Assembly: GCF_007483665.1 (NCBI RefSeq)
Contig: NZ_VIQO01000010.1
Span: forward strand, 186,001 to 250,000
Direction of reading: 5' to 3'
DNA from: Catellatospora sichuanensis
GTDB lineage: Bacteria > Actinomycetota > Actinomycetes > Mycobacteriales > Micromonosporaceae
DNA length: 64,000 nucleotides
A program made the translations under genes and the position numbers. The notes below the pieces were generated by a model. The model worked only from the letters and a program-made list of their open reading frames with translations, was not told the origin of the DNA and made no database searches. Below are positions 56,507 to 64,000 of the stretch, piece after piece (position 1 is the first letter of the stretch; each line of letters begins with the position of its first letter).

Positions 56507-57862
56507 TCAGGCCACCGTGACCGGCACCTCCACCGCCCAGTAGAGCTGACCCTGCGGGCCGGTGAAGAGCAGTACCACCATCAGGTGGGCGGACGGCCTC
56601 AATCCGGTCTGCTCGTCACGCGGGAGCGTGCCGACGAAACCGGTCGACGTCTCGTCCGGCTGGACGCCGACTGCCATGCCGTCCGGGTAGCTGATCTCGG
56701 CGTTGCCGTGCGGGGTCGGGGCCAGTGCCGACAGCCAGGGGTAACGCTTCCAGGCGTCGCGCAGGGCGTCACCGCCCCAGCCGCCGCCGTCCCGGCCGTA
56801 GAACCGGCGCACGACCCGGTTGTACCGCCTGTCGATCATGATGAGCTGGTAGTACCCACGCGTCGTCGGCTGCGGCGTGGCGACGTCGAGTCGACCGAGA
56901 ATGGTTTGGCCGAGCGTGGAGTGGAGGCCGGACACGCCCAGGGCGGCGGCGTCGGCGTCGAAGTGCTCCATGTCGGTCAGCCGGATCGTGGCGACGGGGT
57001 GCACCGCCTCGGGCTCGTACGGCGGGCGGTCGCGCCACGCGCCGAAGCCGACCGCTGCCACCGAGGCAGTCACCATGACGATCGCGATGAAGGGCACGAG
57101 CCGCAGCCGACGGCCGGGCGCGGATTCGCTCCACAGTGCCGCCGCCAGGAACAGCACGCCGAGCGCCAAGCCGGTGGCGACGGCGCCCGCCCATTCCGCG
57201 GTCTCGCCGTTCAGCGCGGCACGCACCTGATCGGCTTGGTGCAGCAGGCAGAGCATGGCGAGCACCAGGCCGACCGTGGTCAGCGAGGCGACGGCGTGCG
57301 CCCGCGCCGCCAGGTCCACCGCGCTGGTCGTGTCGGCGAGCGGGGCACGCCGCGTGACGTGCTGCACCGTCGCGGTGACGAACACGCAGGTGACCAGCGC
57401 GCCCACGCCCCAGGCGGCGATCTCCCCGCCGTCTCCGAGGCCCGATGACAGCGCCAAGGCGGTGGAAACGAGCGCGATGGCGGCGACGACGAGGGGCGTA
57501 CGGCGCAGCCACGCCGGGACCGGAACGGCGGTCACGGTCCGGGTCGCGGTGCCCGCCGCCAGTTCGGCCGACGCCGCGCCGAGCAGCCAGCCGGCCAGCA
57601 GCGGCACGAACAGGACGGCGAACCGCTGCTCGGGCAGCAGCCAGATCAGCGGGACCACGATGCCGAGCAGGAGGCCCCAGACCCGCCGTCGCCGGATCAG
57701 CCGCAGATAGCGCTCGACGGAGGCGGCCCGTTCCTGGGTGAGGTCCAGCCCGTGGCGGTTCGCGAAGCCGAGAATCCGCGGCGGGCCCACCCAGCCGCGG
57801 ATCGCGATGATCAGCACGGCGACAGCCACCGCCGCGAAAACGATCACAGACACCTCGGCCAC
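56507..57862 (-). CDS. Tandem paralogous membrane protein A
   Basis: The 451-residue protein has about eight hydrophobic helices in residues 1-270 and a soluble C-terminal domain. It begins with GWVGPPRILGFANRHGLDLT and RAASVERYLRLIRRRR, shared with the neighbour at 58059, as are WLLPEQRFA, VTCVFVTATVQHV and DAAALGVSGL. The C-terminal part has YYQLIMIDRRYNRVVRRFYG and a final LYWAVEVPV. I do not recognise the family. The stop is 4 bases from the convergent dapC. Confidence 0.6.
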   Translation of the reverse strand: MAEVSVIVFAAVAVAVLIIAIRGWVGPPRILGFANRHGLDLTQERAASVERYLRLIRRRRVWGLLLGIVVPLIWLLPEQRFAVLFVPLLAGWLLGAASAELAAGTATRTVTAVPVPAWLRRTPLVVAAIALVSTALALSSGLGDGGEIAAWGVGALVTCVFVTATVQHVTRRAPLADTTSAVDLAARAHAVASLTTVGLVLAMLCLLHQADQVRAALNGETAEWAGAVATGLALGVLFLAAALWSESAPGRRLRLVPFIAIVMVTASVAAVGFGAWRDRPPYEPEAVHPVATIRLTDMEHFDADAAALGVSGLHSTLGQTILGRLDVATPQPTTRGYYQLIMIDRRYNRVVRRFYGRDGGGWGGDALRDAWKRYPWLSALAPTPHGNAEISYPDGMAVGVQPDETSTGFVGTLPRDEQTGLRPSAHLMVVLLFTGPQGQLYWAVEVPVTVA

Positions 57863-58058: not shown

Positions 58059-59423
58059 TCAGGCCGCGCTGACCGGCACCTGCACCGCCCAGTGGAACTG
58101 GTTCCGCGGCCCTTTGAAGATCAGTGCGACGAGCAGGTGCGAACTTCGCAGCCCTGCTCCGTCGGGGACGTTGCCGAAGAACGTGATGCGCATCGGCCCA
58201 CCGGTGGCGCGGGTGTGCACCGCGGTGGGGCGCTCCGCCCAGAAATCGCCGTCCTGCGCTGCCGGGCCGAGGGCGAGCGCGGAGAGCCAGTCATAACGGT
58301 CGGGCAGGTCGCCGGGGTCGCCCCAGCCGTTGCCCTCGCCGCCGTACAGCGCGTACACCGCCCGGTTGTGCCGCCTGTCGATGACGACGATCAGGTACTG
58401 GCTGTCTTCCGGGACCTGGGGCGGCGCGGCGACGTCGATCCGGCCGACAAAGGCCCGCTCGCCCTCGACGGCCGCCGTGTTGACGGTGCCGGTGAGGCCG
58501 AGCGCCGCCGCGTCGGCGTCGAAGTGCGCGCGGTCCGTCAGCCGGATGGTCGCGTTCGGGCGCAGCTCCTGCGGCCCGTACGGCGGCCGGTCGCGGAGCA
58601 CGGTCCGGCCGAGCCAGGCGGCGGAGAACACCAGCAGCAGGGCCGTGGTGACGGCGAGCAGGCGGGTGGACCTGCCGGGCACGGCGGCCAACCAGATCAG
58701 GACGCCGATGAGCATGATGCCGAACCCCAGGACGGTGCCGACGGTGGCGGTCGCCAGCGCGGTCTGCCCGCCCAGCTCGGCTTGCACGTTGTCGAGCTGG
58801 CGCAGCAGGCAGTGCACGGCGAGCACCAGACCGACCGCGGTCACCGCCGCGGTGGCATGTGCGCGGGCCGCCAGGTCCACCGCACGGTCCGTGTCGACGA
58901 GCGGGCGGCGGCGCCAGACGTGCTGCACCGTCGCGGTGACGAACACGCACGTGAGCAGCGCTCCGATGCCCCAGCCGACGATCTCCCCGGGGTGCCCGAC
59001 GCCGGCCCACAGCGCCAGGGCGGTGGAGACCGGTGCGACGGCGGCGACGATGCCGGGCGTCCGGCGCAGCCAGGCCGGCACGGTCATGGGTTCCCCGGCC
59101 GGTGTCGCGGTGCCCGCCGCCAGCTCGGCCCAGGATGCGCCGAGCAGCCAGCCCACCAGCACCGGCATGGTCTCGATGGCGAAACGCTGCTCGGGCAGGA
59201 GCCAGATCAGCGGGACCGCGCAGCCGAGGAACACGGTGAAGGCCCGGTGCCGCCGGGTCAGCCGCAGGTAGCGCTCGACGGACGCGGCCCGTTCCGGGGT
59301 GAGGTCCAGCCCGTGCCGGGTCGCGAACCGTCTGATCCGCGGTGGCCCGACCTGCTCGTGGGCGGCGACCACCAGCGCGATGATCACCACGGCCGCGATG
59401 ATGAGCAACGGATACTCGGACAC
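58059..59423 (-). CDS. Tandem paralogous membrane protein B
   Basis: The 454-residue protein is colinear with the copy at 56507: EQVGPPRIRRFATRHGLDLT, RAASVERYLRLTRRHR, WLLPEQRFA, LLTCVFVTATVQHV, SQYLIVVIDRRHNRAVYALY and FHWAVQVPV. The non-coding sequences just upstream of both starts also match (GGCCGCCA-CGC-GCTGCCCCGTCAGCGG-type), so the duplication included the promoter region. Function unknown. Confidence 0.6.
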   Translation of the reverse strand: MSEYPLLIIAAVVIIALVVAAHEQVGPPRIRRFATRHGLDLTPERAASVERYLRLTRRHRAFTVFLGCAVPLIWLLPEQRFAIETMPVLVGWLLGASWAELAAGTATPAGEPMTVPAWLRRTPGIVAAVAPVSTALALWAGVGHPGEIVGWGIGALLTCVFVTATVQHVWRRRPLVDTDRAVDLAARAHATAAVTAVGLVLAVHCLLRQLDNVQAELGGQTALATATVGTVLGFGIMLIGVLIWLAAVPGRSTRLLAVTTALLLVFSAAWLGRTVLRDRPPYGPQELRPNATIRLTDRAHFDADAAALGLTGTVNTAAVEGERAFVGRIDVAAPPQVPEDSQYLIVVIDRRHNRAVYALYGGEGNGWGDPGDLPDRYDWLSALALGPAAQDGDFWAERPTAVHTRATGGPMRITFFGNVPDGAGLRSSHLLVALIFKGPRNQFHWAVQVPVSAA

Positions 59424-59487: not shown

Positions 59488-60774
59488 TCAGCGGGCCGTG
59501 ATGCGGTGCGGGGCCAGGCGTTCCAGGAAGGCCCGGTTGGCCTCCCAGCCGTCGACCTGCGGCGGATCCGTGCCGAGCCAGACCGGCTCCGCCGCCGGGT
59601 ACGCGTGCAGCTGCTCTTCGACCCCGGCCCGGCTCACCACGACGCACGCCTGCCGGTGCCGGGAGGCCAGCACGCACAGCCGTCCCGCCTCCAGGTGGAA
59701 GGCGCTGGCGTCGCGCCGCCCGCTCAGCGGATGCCAGGCCAGCACCACCTCGTACTGCCGCCCCTGCAGCCGGTTGGCCGTGTCGACGGTGACCCCGGTG
59801 ACTCCCCGGCGCTGCAACGCGGCTTCCACGTGCGCCTTCTGGTCCCGGTGCACCACCCCGACGGCCACGTCGGCCCGGCTGAGCGGTCGCGGCCCGGACG
59901 GGTCCACCGTGGACACATCCGCGGTGACGAGCTGATGCACCAGGTCGGCCAGCGTCGCGACCAGGGCCGGGTCGGTACGCGGCACGTGCGCGGCGGGCAG
60001 TTCCAGCAGGGCCCAGCCGTGCTCGGCGGCGTGTGCCAGTGCGGGGTGCGCGAGGCTGGCCAGTTCGAGCCGCCGGTCGGTCGGCGCGGCTCCGGCGGTG
60101 AACGCGCGGGTGTAGAACGCGTCGGAGATCACCGGCGCGGTGTGCGGGGCGAGTCGCCAGCTCACCGGCAGCGGGATGACGGGGGTGTCCGGGTGGTGGC
60201 GCAGCAGCGTGCCCGCCGCGGTGTCCAGCGGCCAGGTGGCGAGCGAGCGCACCGAGTGCTCGTCGGCGACGGTGAACGGGGCGAGCTGCCCCGGGTCGCC
60301 GACCAGCAGCAGCCGGTCGAACAGGTGCCCGACGCGCACCAGCGCCGCCGCCGACATCTGGTACGCCTCGTCGATGACGCCCAGCGGCCAGGTCCGCTCG
60401 TCGGCCTTGACGAAGGCCCACTTCGCGGCGGTGCCCACGATGACGTCGCAGCCGCCCAGCTCGCCGAGCTTGGTACCGGTGCGCACCTTGGTCCGCGGCC
60501 AGCCGGTCGGTGGTGTCCATTCCTGGCCGTGCAGGCGGCCGGTGGACAGTCCGGCCCCGGCCAGCGCGATCACCAGGTCGTCGGCCTGGTCGTTGGTCTG
60601 CACCACGATAGGCACGTGCTCACCCACGGCCACCAGGCGTTTCGCGAGTTCCCGGACCAGCGTGGACTTGCCCGCGCCGGGCGGCGAGTCGACGACGACG
60701 GCCCGGTCGGTGCCGCGTACCCGGTCCCAGACCTCCTCGATGGCGGCCTCATGCCGTGCTCCGGCGCTGCTCAC
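59488..60774 (-). CDS. Upf1-like SF1 DNA/RNA helicase
   Basis: GTG 60774 overlaps the upstream stop (GTGA). The 428-residue protein shows ordered helicase motifs: I PPGAGKST (31-38), II VIDEAYQ (around 133), III LLLVGDPGQLAPF (around 156), V VTVDTANRLQGRQYEVVLAW (around 340) and VI with LCVLASRHRQACVVVSR (around 382). DEAxQ in motif II and the GRQYE segment place it with Upf1/Dna2-type SF1B helicases. It lacks large accessory domains. It is the third gene of an operon with an Fe-S nuclease and an unknown protein. Confidence 0.82.
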   Translation of the reverse strand: MSSAGARHEAAIEEVWDRVRGTDRAVVVDSPPGAGKSTLVRELAKRLVAVGEHVPIVVQTNDQADDLVIALAGAGLSTGRLHGQEWTPPTGWPRTKVRTGTKLGELGGCDVIVGTAAKWAFVKADERTWPLGVIDEAYQMSAAALVRVGHLFDRLLLVGDPGQLAPFTVADEHSVRSLATWPLDTAAGTLLRHHPDTPVIPLPVSWRLAPHTAPVISDAFYTRAFTAGAAPTDRRLELASLAHPALAHAAEHGWALLELPAAHVPRTDPALVATLADLVHQLVTADVSTVDPSGPRPLSRADVAVGVVHRDQKAHVEAALQRRGVTGVTVDTANRLQGRQYEVVLAWHPLSGRRDASAFHLEAGRLCVLASRHRQACVVVSRAGVEEQLHAYPAAEPVWLGTDPPQVDGWEANRAFLERLAPHRITAR

Positions 60775-62333
60775 AGTGCTCCTCGCGGCTCACCCGGGGC
60801 AGCCGTGCCGCCTGCGGGGACGCCGTCGCCCGGATCGGCACGCGGCCCGGGGACGCGGCCCGGCGTGCCACCGAGGTCGACGGCTGCGGCAGCCGGGGCG
60901 GCGGGTGCGAGGTCGGTGTCCAGGTCGTCGTCCTGCTCCGGTTCGGGTGCGGGCTTCGGGCGCGACGACCGGGTGGGCCAGGGCAGCTCGTCGGGCAGGT
61001 TGTCGGGGAAGTACTGCAACGGGCCGAACGGGGCCAGCACCACCTCGGCGTCGGTGTCGGGCAGCAGGTTCAGCTTGGGCCGGGTCACCGCGCCGCTGGT
61101 CACCATCAGTTCGACGGTGTCGTCGGTGGATCCGCGCACCACCATGCCGACCTTGCCCCACCACAGCTCGGTGCCCGCGGGCCGGTCGAACGCGGCCGCG
61201 GTGCGCACCCACAGCAGGGGCCGCAGCACCGAGCGGCCGCCGGAGTTGACGACCGTGTGCTCGGGGTCGCGCTTGAAAACGACCCCGGCGACGGCTTCGC
61301 CGGTGGCCAGGTAACGGGCCATGACCAGCGGATCGTCCAGCGCCATCTGCCGTTCCAGGGCGGCCGTGCGGGTCTCCAGCTCGTGCAGGAAGCGGTATGC
61401 GGGCACGTCGGACAGCCGCGCGCTGAACGACACCGTGCCCGCGAGCACCCGTTCCCGGTGCCGGGTCCACGACCAGCGGTCGGACTCCCAGCGTTTGGCC
61501 ACGTGCTCGCCGGGCGGCAGCATCCGCACCAGGTCGATCGCCGCCCAGGTGTCGCGCCAGGCCCCGTCGAGCACCTCGGCGGCGGCCAGTTTGAGCCGCC
61601 GTACGTCGCCCTGCTGCTTGGCCCGTTCCAGGGCCGGGCGCAGCACGACCTGGTCCCAGGACGGGTCGCTGGCGGGCCCGGCCGGCGGCATCGCCTCGGC
61701 GTCGCGCGCGGCCTGCCAGGCGTCGGCTCCGGCGGGCGGCTCGATCCAGGCCAGCAGCCGGCCCAGGTGCCCGTCCTCGGTGGGCAGCTGGCCGGTGCGC
61801 CAGTGCGCGGTGAGCAGGTCGGTTGCGGTGAGCAGCACGCTGGAGCCGGGCAGGTGGCGGCGTGAGGCGATCCAGCCCAGGTGCGCCCCGGCGGCGGCGA
61901 GCACCGGGTCGTCGAGGGTGCGCAGGTACTGCCCGAGCAGGCCGACCCAGTGCGCGGTGGCCTCGTTGGGCACGACCAGCTGCGGGGCGTCCACGCAGCA
62001 GTGGTCCACCTCCAGTTCGCGGCCGCTGCCGGTGGCCCGCACCACGGGCTCGGTGACCGTGTAGCGGCTCAGGTAGGTGGCCAGGTCGCGGGCCAGGCCG
62101 CCGAGCGCGGCGAAGCGCAGCGCCCGGTCCCGTGGCTCGGCCACGGTGAGCAGCTTGGGGGAGTCGCGGAAGGAGCCGTAACGGATCGCGACCGGCGCGG
62201 ACGGCTCCCCGGCCAGGTGGTAGCCGGTCAGCAGCCAGGGTCGCGGGGACAAATGCCGGTGGGCGCGGGAGGCCGCAGGCACGGCACGGGCCCGGGACAG
62301 CGCCAGCAGCCGCTGGTAGACGTCGAGGCTCAT
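60771..62333 (-). CDS. Unknown 520-residue protein between the nuclease and the helicase
   Basis: ATG 62333 overlaps the nuclease stop and TGA overlaps the helicase GTG, so it is coupled on both sides. I do not recognise the family. Residues ~1-450 look globular (RHLSPRPWLLTGYHLAGEPS, LEVDHCCVDAPQLVVPNEAT, FRDSPKLLTVAEPRDRALRF, WRDTWAAIDLVRMLPPGE). A beta-rich part near 330-440 ends in LNLLPDTDAEVVLAPFGPLQ. The last ~70 residues are Pro/Ala/Asp-rich and probably disordered. It may bridge nuclease and helicase or bind DNA. Confidence 0.6.
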   Translation of the reverse strand: MSLDVYQRLLALSRARAVPAASRAHRHLSPRPWLLTGYHLAGEPSAPVAIRYGSFRDSPKLLTVAEPRDRALRFAALGGLARDLATYLSRYTVTEPVVRATGSGRELEVDHCCVDAPQLVVPNEATAHWVGLLGQYLRTLDDPVLAAAGAHLGWIASRRHLPGSSVLLTATDLLTAHWRTGQLPTEDGHLGRLLAWIEPPAGADAWQAARDAEAMPPAGPASDPSWDQVVLRPALERAKQQGDVRRLKLAAAEVLDGAWRDTWAAIDLVRMLPPGEHVAKRWESDRWSWTRHRERVLAGTVSFSARLSDVPAYRFLHELETRTAALERQMALDDPLVMARYLATGEAVAGVVFKRDPEHTVVNSGGRSVLRPLLWVRTAAAFDRPAGTELWWGKVGMVVRGSTDDTVELMVTSGAVTRPKLNLLPDTDAEVVLAPFGPLQYFPDNLPDELPWPTRSSRPKPAPEPEQDDDLDTDLAPAAPAAAAVDLGGTPGRVPGPRADPGDGVPAGGTAAPGEPRGAL

Positions 62334-63295
62334 CGGGCGCTCCCTCCGGCCGGGCCGGGGCCCGTGGCGACGCCGGAACCACCGACCGCCCAGCCGTACG
62401 CCGCCGCGGCGCGCGCCAGCTCGTCCGCGATGGCCTGCTCCGCCTCGCCGGACGGGGAGCGCTCGCCGTGGGCCAGGGCCAGCGCGTGCACGGCCGTGCC
62501 GACGGGGCCGCACAGGTTCGCCGCCGCCCCACCCGCGCGGGCGACCGTGCCGGTGCGTTCGGCGTCCTGGCGGCAGTGCGTGTACATCGGACAGCTCGGG
62601 CAGCCGTCGCCGAACCGCGCGTCGACCGCGGCCAGCGCGTTGACCAGCGCTTGTCCACCCAGGTCGGGAAGGCGCAGCCGGGCCGGCAGATCGACGGCGT
62701 CGAGCCGGTCCAGTGACCAGCCCAGGCGGCGTACCTGTGGCGCGACGTCGAGCAGGGTGCCGACCGGGGCGAGGCCGAAGTTGCGCGGCAGCACCAGCAG
62801 GCAGCGGCTGCTGACGCGCTCCGGCACGGGTGCGGCCTGCCGCAGCGCGGCCACGACCACGGCCAGCTCGCGGGCGGTGCCGGCGACCTTGGCCGGGTCG
62901 GCGTGACCGTCCAGGCAGGCGTACGACCTGATCTCGACCGGGTGCAGCAGCGTGCCGTCACCGGCCAGCACGATCCGCTCGGGGGTGACCGGCAGGTCGC
63001 GCAGGCGCAGCTTCGGCTCGCGCCACACCCACAGGCCCGCGCCGACCGGCAGCTCCGACGTCTCGACGGCGGCCTCGCAGTCGATGCCGAGGTGCCGTCC
63101 GACCAGCTCGGGCAGCCGGGCCGTGGCCAGGTGCGTGAAGGTCCCGTCCCGCTCCCGGGCGTACGGGCTCTGCCCGCCCGGCGGCGCGCCGATGGCCTCG
63201 GCCAGCAGCCCGAGATCGACCTGCGCCGCGTCCAGGGCCTGCCGGCGACGGCAGCCGGGCGCGTCGAGCAGCCCGGCTATCCGTCGCGGGTCCAA
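62330..63295 (-). CDS. Fe-S RecB/Cas4-like (PD-(D/E)XK) nuclease-type protein
   Basis: TTG 63295 follows GGAGG by nine bases and gives 321 residues. A lone N-terminal cysteine (APGCRRRQ, Cys15) and a C-terminal cluster CPSCPMYTHC (C-x2-C-x5-C, near 231-240) match the [4Fe-4S] pattern of Cas4, AddB and Dna2 nucleases. Between them lie AGDGTLLHPVEIRSY, resembling D...ExK, and PAKVAGTARELAVVVAALRQ, resembling the QxxxY helix. The active-site Lys is replaced by Arg (EIR), so activity is uncertain. First gene of the operon; 39 bases after dapD. Confidence 0.65.
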   Translation of the reverse strand: MDPRRIAGLLDAPGCRRRQALDAAQVDLGLLAEAIGAPPGGQSPYARERDGTFTHLATARLPELVGRHLGIDCEAAVETSELPVGAGLWVWREPKLRLRDLPVTPERIVLAGDGTLLHPVEIRSYACLDGHADPAKVAGTARELAVVVAALRQAAPVPERVSSRCLLVLPRNFGLAPVGTLLDVAPQVRRLGWSLDRLDAVDLPARLRLPDLGGQALVNALAAVDARFGDGCPSCPMYTHCRQDAERTGTVARAGGAAANLCGPVGTAVHALALAHGERSPSGEAEQAIADELARAAAAYGWAVGGSGVATGPGPAGGSAR

Positions 63296-63334: not shown

Positions 63335-64000
63335 TCAGTCGTTGGCGTGCAGTGCCGCGTTGAGCACGATGCCGGTGCCGCTGCGCGGCCGGGCCTCCAC
63401 CGCGCCGGTCACCGAGTTGCGCAGGAACAGCACGTTGGACGCGCCGGACAGGGTCAGCGCCTTCACCACCTCGCCGGTGGCGACCAGGGTGACCTTGGTG
63501 CCCGCGGTGACGTAGCAGCCGGCCTCGACCACGCAGTCGTCACCGAGCGAGATGCCGATGCCGGCGTTCGCGCCGACCAGGCTGCGCTGCCCGACGCTGA
63601 TGGTCTCCTTGCCGCCGCCGGACAGGGTGCCCATGATGGACGCGCCCGCGCCGATGTCGGAGCCCTCGCCGACGACGACGCCCGCGGAGATGCTGCCCTC
63701 GACCATGGAGGTGCCCAGCGTGCCGGCGTTGAAGTTGACGAAGCCCTTCTGCATGACCGTGGTGCCGGAGGCCAGGTGCGCGCCGAGGCGCACCCGGTCG
63801 GCGTCGGCGATGCGCACGCCCGGCGGCACGACGTAGTCGGTCATGCGGGGGAACTTGTCCACGCCGTACACGGCGAGGTGGCGGCCGGCGGCGCGCTCGA
63901 TCAGGCGCAGCTCGTCGACGCGGTCCGGCGGGCAGACGCCCGCGGAGGTCCAGGCGTTGTTCGGCAGCAGCCCGAAGATGCCGTCGAGGTTGGCCTGATG
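63335..64000 (-). CDS. dapD: 2,3,4,5-Tetrahydropyridine-2,6-dicarboxylate N-succinyltransferase (partial)
   Basis: The C-terminal 221 residues are present and the frame is open to the window edge. [19 protein letters not shown], then [20 protein letters not shown] and a left-handed beta-helix of hexapeptide repeats ([38 protein letters not shown]) match the actinobacterial DapD. It succinylates tetrahydrodipicolinate before the DapC transamination in lysine/diaminopimelate synthesis. The N-terminal part lies beyond 64000. Confidence 0.93.

Follow-up and report, generated by a model that had tools for sequence, protein, structure and literature searches.

An operon of Catellatospora sichuanensis pairing a DNA2-type helicase core with an iron-sulfur RecB-family nuclease homologue that appears to have lost its cutting site

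When a nuclease-like gene and a helicase gene are joined through a third gene of no recognised kinship, the question arises whether the three make up a helicase-nuclease of the DNA2 class in separate chains and, if so, whether the nuclease still cuts. Such a locus is found in Catellatospora sichuanensis (RefSeq assembly GCF_007483665.1), within the 64,000 nucleotides of contig NZ_VIQO01000010.1 analysed here (positions 186,001 to 250,000) and hereafter called the window. On the minus strand, as are all features given below with window coordinates, the set comprises NUC (62330-63295; 321 amino acids (aa), TTG start), MID (60771-62333; 520 aa, ATG start, with a proline-rich C-terminal tail) and HEL (59488-60774; 428 aa, GTG start), both junctions overlapping by 4 nucleotides (nt). 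An earlier note on this DNA had located these three open reading frames (ORFs) and their two overlaps correctly, and had regarded them as a split Dna2. As argued below, the operon probably codes for a three-subunit helicase assembly of the DNA2/Bad type in separate chains, Bad being a one-chain helicase-nuclease of Geobacillus, with NUC turned into a non-cutting iron-sulfur (Fe-S) protein in this clade.

Judged from its motifs and profiles, HEL is an intact superfamily 1B (SF1B) helicase core of the DNA2/Upf1 type. It lies above the Pfam cut-offs for AAA_11, AAA_12 and AAA_30, and the best match of its family profile in the PDB is DNA2 (E 2.4e-12), followed by SMUBP-2 and Upf1, in line with the Upf1/Dna2-type assignment made previously. 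The sequences PPGAGKST, DEAYQ and GDPGQLAP, on which this assignment was based, are all present in HEL, namely in motif I or Walker A (PPGAGKST, residues 31-38, 60661-60684), motif II (DEAY, residues 135-138, 60361-60372) and motif III (GDPGQL, residues 159-164, 60283-60300), together with motif V (VDTANRLQG, residues 330-338, 59761-59787); across 11 aligned HEL members, the SF1 motifs I, II, III, V and VI are invariant. The protein starts directly with the first RecA domain, and 30 residues precede motif I. Against PADLOC, searched with E-values up to 1, HEL gives weak partial matches only (best E 2.8e-5).

Regarding NUC, library searches are silent, as neither the window NUC nor MID has a significant match in Pfam, NCBIfam, PADLOC or PHROGs, and the same holds for two NUC-MID fusions from related genera (L219 in Pfam and NCBIfam, L223 in Pfam); among 17 NUC members searched in Pfam, a single one reached PDDEXK_1, with an E-value of 0.13 only. 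A profile of 42 NUC sequences aligns nonetheless to Cas4-family proteins from other genomes (hhalign P 4.4e-6, the best of 21 unrelated neighbour-gene clusters serving as control giving P 0.13), and the alignment pairs the metal-binding Asp, the ExK motif, the Gln and the cysteines. This supports the membership of the NUC family among the Cas4-type RecB nucleases, and thereby the kinship with Fe-S RecB-family nucleases proposed in the earlier note; the Cas4 alignment points to PD-(D/E)XK homology of the family. Compared by sequence to Cas4 only, the window protein differs from the iron-staple nucleases Cas4 and AddB in lacking most catalytic residues and in carrying a C-terminal extension beyond the cysteines.

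The catalytic site itself was compared across 74 NUC loci, after 18 had been set aside as duplicates of loci already included, on the basis of sequence or genome position. The active signature is carried by 54 of them, with the motif-I Glu, the motif-II Asp, the Glu and Lys of ExK, the Gln and the Tyr each present in 54/54, as are the second to fourth cysteines, the first cysteine being present in 50 and the alignment gapped there in the remaining four. In the window NUC, which reads T54, E106, E121, R123, E143 and V147, five of the six catalytic positions are replaced (E54T, D106E, K123R, Q143E and Y147V): the motif-I Glu (RGNxFE in relatives) by Thr at residue 54 (63134-63136), the motif-II metal ligand Asp by Glu at residue 106 (62978-62980), the ExK lysine by Arg at residue 123 (62927-62929), Glu121 being retained, and the QxxxY motif by ExxxV at residues 143-147 (62855-62869). 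Since these five replacements hit residues that are invariant in all 54 active-signature copies, the window NUC is predicted not to cut. It keeps, on the other hand, the predicted Fe-S cysteines, i.e. C15 (63251-63253) and C232-x2-C235-x5-C241 (62573-62602), which correspond to the single N-terminal Cys and the C-x2-C-x5-C pattern reported in the earlier note. The protein thus appears to have lost its cutting site yet kept its Fe-S ligands, and the working nuclease that the note had supposed is not supported for the window genome.

The same condition extends to 20 inactivated loci altogether, where the Lys is replaced by Arg in 20/20, the Gln by Glu in 18 and the motif-I Glu retained in three only. 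As the split between active and inactivated loci was drawn after viewing the residues, the Lys to Arg count is circular; the absence of any variation in the other 54 is not. At motif II, read by eye because the automated column (15 Asp, 4 Glu, 1 gap) is partly misaligned, 14 inactivated loci keep Asp, five have Glu (the window, L003, L004, L005 and L220) and L002 has Gly. Nineteen of the 20 are from Micromonosporaceae and spread over four genera, with 11 in Catellatospora, four in genus g300, three in g326 and one in g298. In the six Catellatospora genomes compared in detail (the window included; nearest named relatives are five Catellatospora species, with NUC identities of 81-94%), position 106 reads E/G/E/E/E/D and E121 is replaced by Val in L003, the four cysteines being invariant. 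They can also be recognised in 18 clade loci and in L229; the cysteine gaps (four loci) and pattern misses (three) stem from faulty alignment or slicing of long open frames. Cysteine spacing is C-x2-C-x5-C in the inactivated clade and C-x3-C-x5-C in all 54 active-signature copies. The twentieth inactivated NUC, L111, is an accessory copy of genus g63 with the C-x3-C-x5-C spacing. It joins Catellatospora in the NUC tree only, and not in the MID or HEL trees; on this ground it is treated as a separate inactivation, long-branch attraction being possible, and its degenerate site apparently arose independently of the Catellatospora clade. Genus g1 is taken as Catellatospora from sequence identity, g2 and g63 being equated with Micromonospora and Streptomyces by inference only.

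Loss of the catalytic residues is accompanied by signs of maintenance. NUC is present in 11/11 Catellatospora genomes searched, and NUC, MID and HEL are intact ORFs in all six genomes compared. Over the 15 pairs of these genomes, the mean ratio of nonsynonymous to synonymous substitution rates (dN/dS) amounts to 0.287 for NUC, 0.225 for MID and 0.114 for HEL. NUC is therefore maintained, under a constraint weaker than that on MID and HEL.

The linkage anticipated in the earlier note is also found in other genomes, genes being called in the relatives with a simple home-made caller. Among 62 MID loci, NUC is adjacent in 62, although this is partly built in for the 18 loci picked via a NUC search, and 45 have HEL on the same strand no more than 4 kilobases (kb) downstream. 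The co-occurrence of the three genes was followed in 30 selected genomes, namely 26 of the 27 MID-positive genomes that a search of 200 genomes of the order had yielded (G173, incomplete and matched in part only, was left out) and four MID-negative g2 genomes: NUC, MID and HEL are all present (26) or all absent (4), even where HEL is unlinked. Two copies of each gene occur in G133, G139 and G163, and G028 has an additional broken HEL piece. In a sample of the phylum, MID is found in at least 14/396 genomes, a lower bound since G444 and G359, found through HEL, carry NUC and MID beside it; in a Micromonosporaceae sample, NUC is found in 167/250 genomes, and G651 and G614 (g326) each show a second NUC match. 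In four loci of g326 and g298, NUC and MID are merged into a single ORF of 710-754 aa, with HEL coming next; dapD is directly upstream in L219, L223 and L229 and not seen in L218. Four g300 loci have the three genes side by side as separate ORFs, in different surroundings, and eleven g63 loci share the upstream gene clusters 7, 6 and 5. No NUC-HEL fusion was seen among the loci examined. Intact and constrained ORFs in six Catellatospora genomes, along with recurrence in several families, indicate that the arrangement is not due to chance.

What such an assembly could do without cutting may be approached from known systems. Bad is reported to be one chain in which an iron-staple RecB-family nuclease stands in front of an SF1B motor, with an unrecognised middle domain, and its looping-motor activity is evident only with the nuclease suppressed (PMC7430649). 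In DNA2, DNA binding is reported to suffer when the Fe-S cluster is lost, and nuclease, helicase and ATPase activities all to need the cluster (PMC7311471). From these results, it can be inferred that a NUC unable to cut can still be a DNA-holding subunit, and that the operon makes a non-cutting motor. HEL would act as the SF1B motor, with MID as an ever-present partner, and NUC, an iron-staple RecB-family subunit by descent, would have been converted in the Catellatospora clade to a DNA-binding pseudo-nuclease. The three proteins would form one complex, where NUC would bind an Fe-S cluster and hold or thread DNA for the motor, and the assembly would translocate on single-stranded DNA 5' to 3' without cutting. 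Cutting would be left to other enzymes, for example and quite speculatively, to two tandem proteins with UvrD and PD-(D/E)XK domains (L240, G000:C6 258525-265074), which are encoded on the opposite strand, starting 8.5 kb after the end of the window, and which we take to be AdnAB-like.

The likeness to these systems is partial. Bad differs in being one chain where three genes are found here, and in the window the nuclease site is lost. Eukaryotic DNA2, the nearest solved relative of HEL, combines the same pair of modules, but is a single chain with an active nuclease (PMC7430649); moreover, DNA2 has no MID, and in HEL motif I is preceded by 30 residues only. The TM0106-type fused proteins of other actinobacteria (TIGR03491; e.g. 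L123 and L129) bring together RecB-like nuclease, RNase_H_2 and SF1 helicase domains. Their helicase half is matched by HEL (hhalign P 1.6e-27), and NUC aligns weakly over their N-terminal part (P 0.007-0.015); each of them is, however, one chain of about 1,100 aa whose middle part shows no match to MID, and a TIGR03491 search of the genome of the window organism gave no match. Of note, in a distant actinobacterium (L119:8058-9752, minus strand), an RNase_H_2-domain protein follows HEL with a 17-nt overlap, the same domain lying between nuclease and helicase in TM0106-type fusions.

As for MID, no significant relative was found in Pfam or the PDB and no match in a phage collection, so that the middle protein stays as unrecognised as in the earlier note. 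A kinship with the 1B barrel of DNA2/Upf1 was considered and dropped, its sole hint being a strand-rich C-terminal part in an unusable model, with a profile P of 0.25. Relatives of MID occur without NUC nearby. Such is the case on plasmids from Rhodococcus, Mycolicibacterium, Cellulosimicrobium and Euzebya, where a protein of 388-448 aa, MID', precedes a HEL relative; comparison of six MID' sequences with the MID profile gives P 8.3e-11, the best among 21 controls reaching 0.016. Ahead of MID'-HEL, an annotated AAA/MoxR-type ATPase and/or VWA gene is present in 5/6, Euzebya having a methyltransferase gene instead; neither NUC nor the additional gene SIX described below was found in the stretches fetched around these pairs. 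Of 29 plasmid records with HEL relatives, 10 were examined, two of which carry the full set, six the pair, as does L250 (left out of the MID' profile comparison), and one, Arthrobacter L248, a divergent neighbour that matches the MID' profile weakly (E 0.0047 against that one protein). The plasmid operons L241, L244, L245, L246, L249 and partly L247 consist of AAA ATPase and/or VWA genes, a protein of 60-70 aa, MID' and HEL', without NUC. Since MID-HEL exists without NUC nearby, the DNA2 analogy needs qualifying. The split-Dna2 idea is partly right: the DNA2 relationship of HEL, the Cas4 kinship of NUC and the conserved linkage are supported, a working nuclease in the window is not. Tentatively, MID-HEL could even be a motor module of actinobacteria, not described so far, whose effectors are interchangeable, i.e. 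an Fe-S NUC in chromosomal or defence-island operons, AAA/VWA genes on plasmids and a pseudo-nuclease in the Catellatospora clade, which would leave a pure DNA motor or a DNA-end sensor, the accessory form working with complexes of the structural maintenance of chromosomes (SMC) type (SbcCD, Wadjet) against foreign DNA. No description of the NUC-MID-HEL trio was found in the literature, as far as titles and the openings of abstracts mostly disclose.

Several points weigh against a non-cutting, DNA2/Bad-like assembly. By eye, the motif-II Asp is retained in 14/20 inactivated loci and the ExK Glu in 11/20. Residual cutting by NUC is possible, since certain PD-(D/E)XK enzymes remain active with another residue in place of the lysine and an Asp can sometimes give way to Glu. 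HEL is not found within 4 kb downstream in 17 of the 62 MID loci, of which 12 are in genomes with HEL elsewhere, L227 has HEL nearby in the opposite orientation and the other four lay outside the genome search for HEL. The AlphaFold models of NUC and MID, built from six close sequences, are unusable, with predicted local distance difference test (pLDDT) scores of 33.5 and 35.4. Besides, a comparison of MID with the central region of DNA2-like fusion proteins from actinobacteria gives P 0.25, its own best control giving 0.027, and in view of this lack of similarity a part-for-part match with Bad, whose sequence was not compared, is not shown.

Among the rival explanations, the one that fares best, albeit rather doubtful, sees in the trio an anti-phage or anti-plasmid module, that is an unrecognised defence operon paired with SMC-type systems. 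It draws on accessory copies. An extra gene, SIX (about 270 aa), lies on the same strand as the set in 16 loci, and SbcD-SbcC adjoins the set in L053, L056, L116 and the plasmid L243, as well as in L046, which is without SIX. On two related Streptomyces plasmids, SIX-NUC-MID-HEL is directly followed by a Wadjet-type gene set (L242:2318-14021 and L243:6971-18676), annotated DUF3375, DUF4194, SbcC/MukB-like (ATP-binding protein in L243) and JetD, presumably corresponding to JetABCD, and the NUC of both plasmids has a live catalytic signature. HmaABC is directly downstream of the operon-like row with the degenerate-site NUC in L111 (2537-14100, minus strand), a GmrSD-like gene stands between MID and HEL in L048 with HsdM after, and a type III restriction gene is near the set in L120. 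Bad also adjoins a gene for a type III-like methyltransferase, a hint at restriction (PMC7430649). Several other SIX loci have no defence-type neighbour in the stretch viewed, and the defence neighbours of the accessory copies, counted without a background rate, are to be taken as a lead. Furthermore, no NUC or MID match to described defence systems was obtained in PADLOC with E-values up to 1, the phage collection holds no match to MID, and no NUC, MID or HEL relative was recovered from viral contigs by pattern search. The window copy sits at a chromosomal site behind dapD, a site also found in g326 and g298, and the eleven g63 loci with the same upstream neighbours look like core chromosome. 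The anti-phage idea of the earlier note consequently fits some accessory paralogues better than the window locus.

That NUC is still a nuclease, with Glu106, Glu121 and Arg123 as a shifted metal site and the trio as an ordinary split helicase-nuclease for DNA-end processing, is unlikely. The window does retain acidic residues at 106 and 121, and the genes and their partners are conserved; however, Gly106 in L002 and Val121 in L003 leave no constant acidic pair even within Catellatospora, and across the 20 inactivated loci the Gln is Glu in 18, the motif-I Glu is lost in most, and the Lys, a residue that helped to define the set, is Arg in all. Very improbable, and already disfavoured, is a decaying pseudogene kept because it overlaps MID, for which the lost catalytic residues, the highest dN/dS of the three genes and the long Catellatospora branch in the NUC tree could be invoked, since NUC is found in every Catellatospora genome searched, has invariant cysteines and a mean dN/dS of 0.29 over the six compared, and in related genera forms one reading frame with MID.

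In the surroundings of the operon, the 3' part of dapD (63335-64000, the gene running past the window end), absent from the earlier note, lies on the same strand 39 nt upstream of NUC and was identified by TIGR03535, the actinobacterial DapD family, from its C-terminal part. The TTG start of NUC (63293-63295) is shared by 6/6 Catellatospora and by L189 and L193, GTG being used in L196, L224 and L225; expression tuning through start-codon choice is possible. Directly downstream of HEL, two paralogous genes in tandem (56507-57862 and 58059-59423) encode proteins of about 450 aa that show hydrophobic stretches by eye; neither has an NCBIfam match and the second is also without Pfam match, and a relative follows HEL in 4/5 other Catellatospora loci, L005 being the exception.

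Considered as a three-subunit helicase assembly with a probably non-cutting Fe-S subunit, the operon adds a multi-gene form to the DNA2/Bad class of helicase-nucleases, with a partner that matches no library searched, and the trio is apparently core in several actinobacterial genera. The accessory copies found beside Wadjet, SbcCD and Hma genes offer a testable lead towards genome defence. In the Catellatospora clade, nature seems to repeat the laboratory inactivation of the Bad nuclease, which would allow the non-cutting role of the iron-staple domain to be asked directly.

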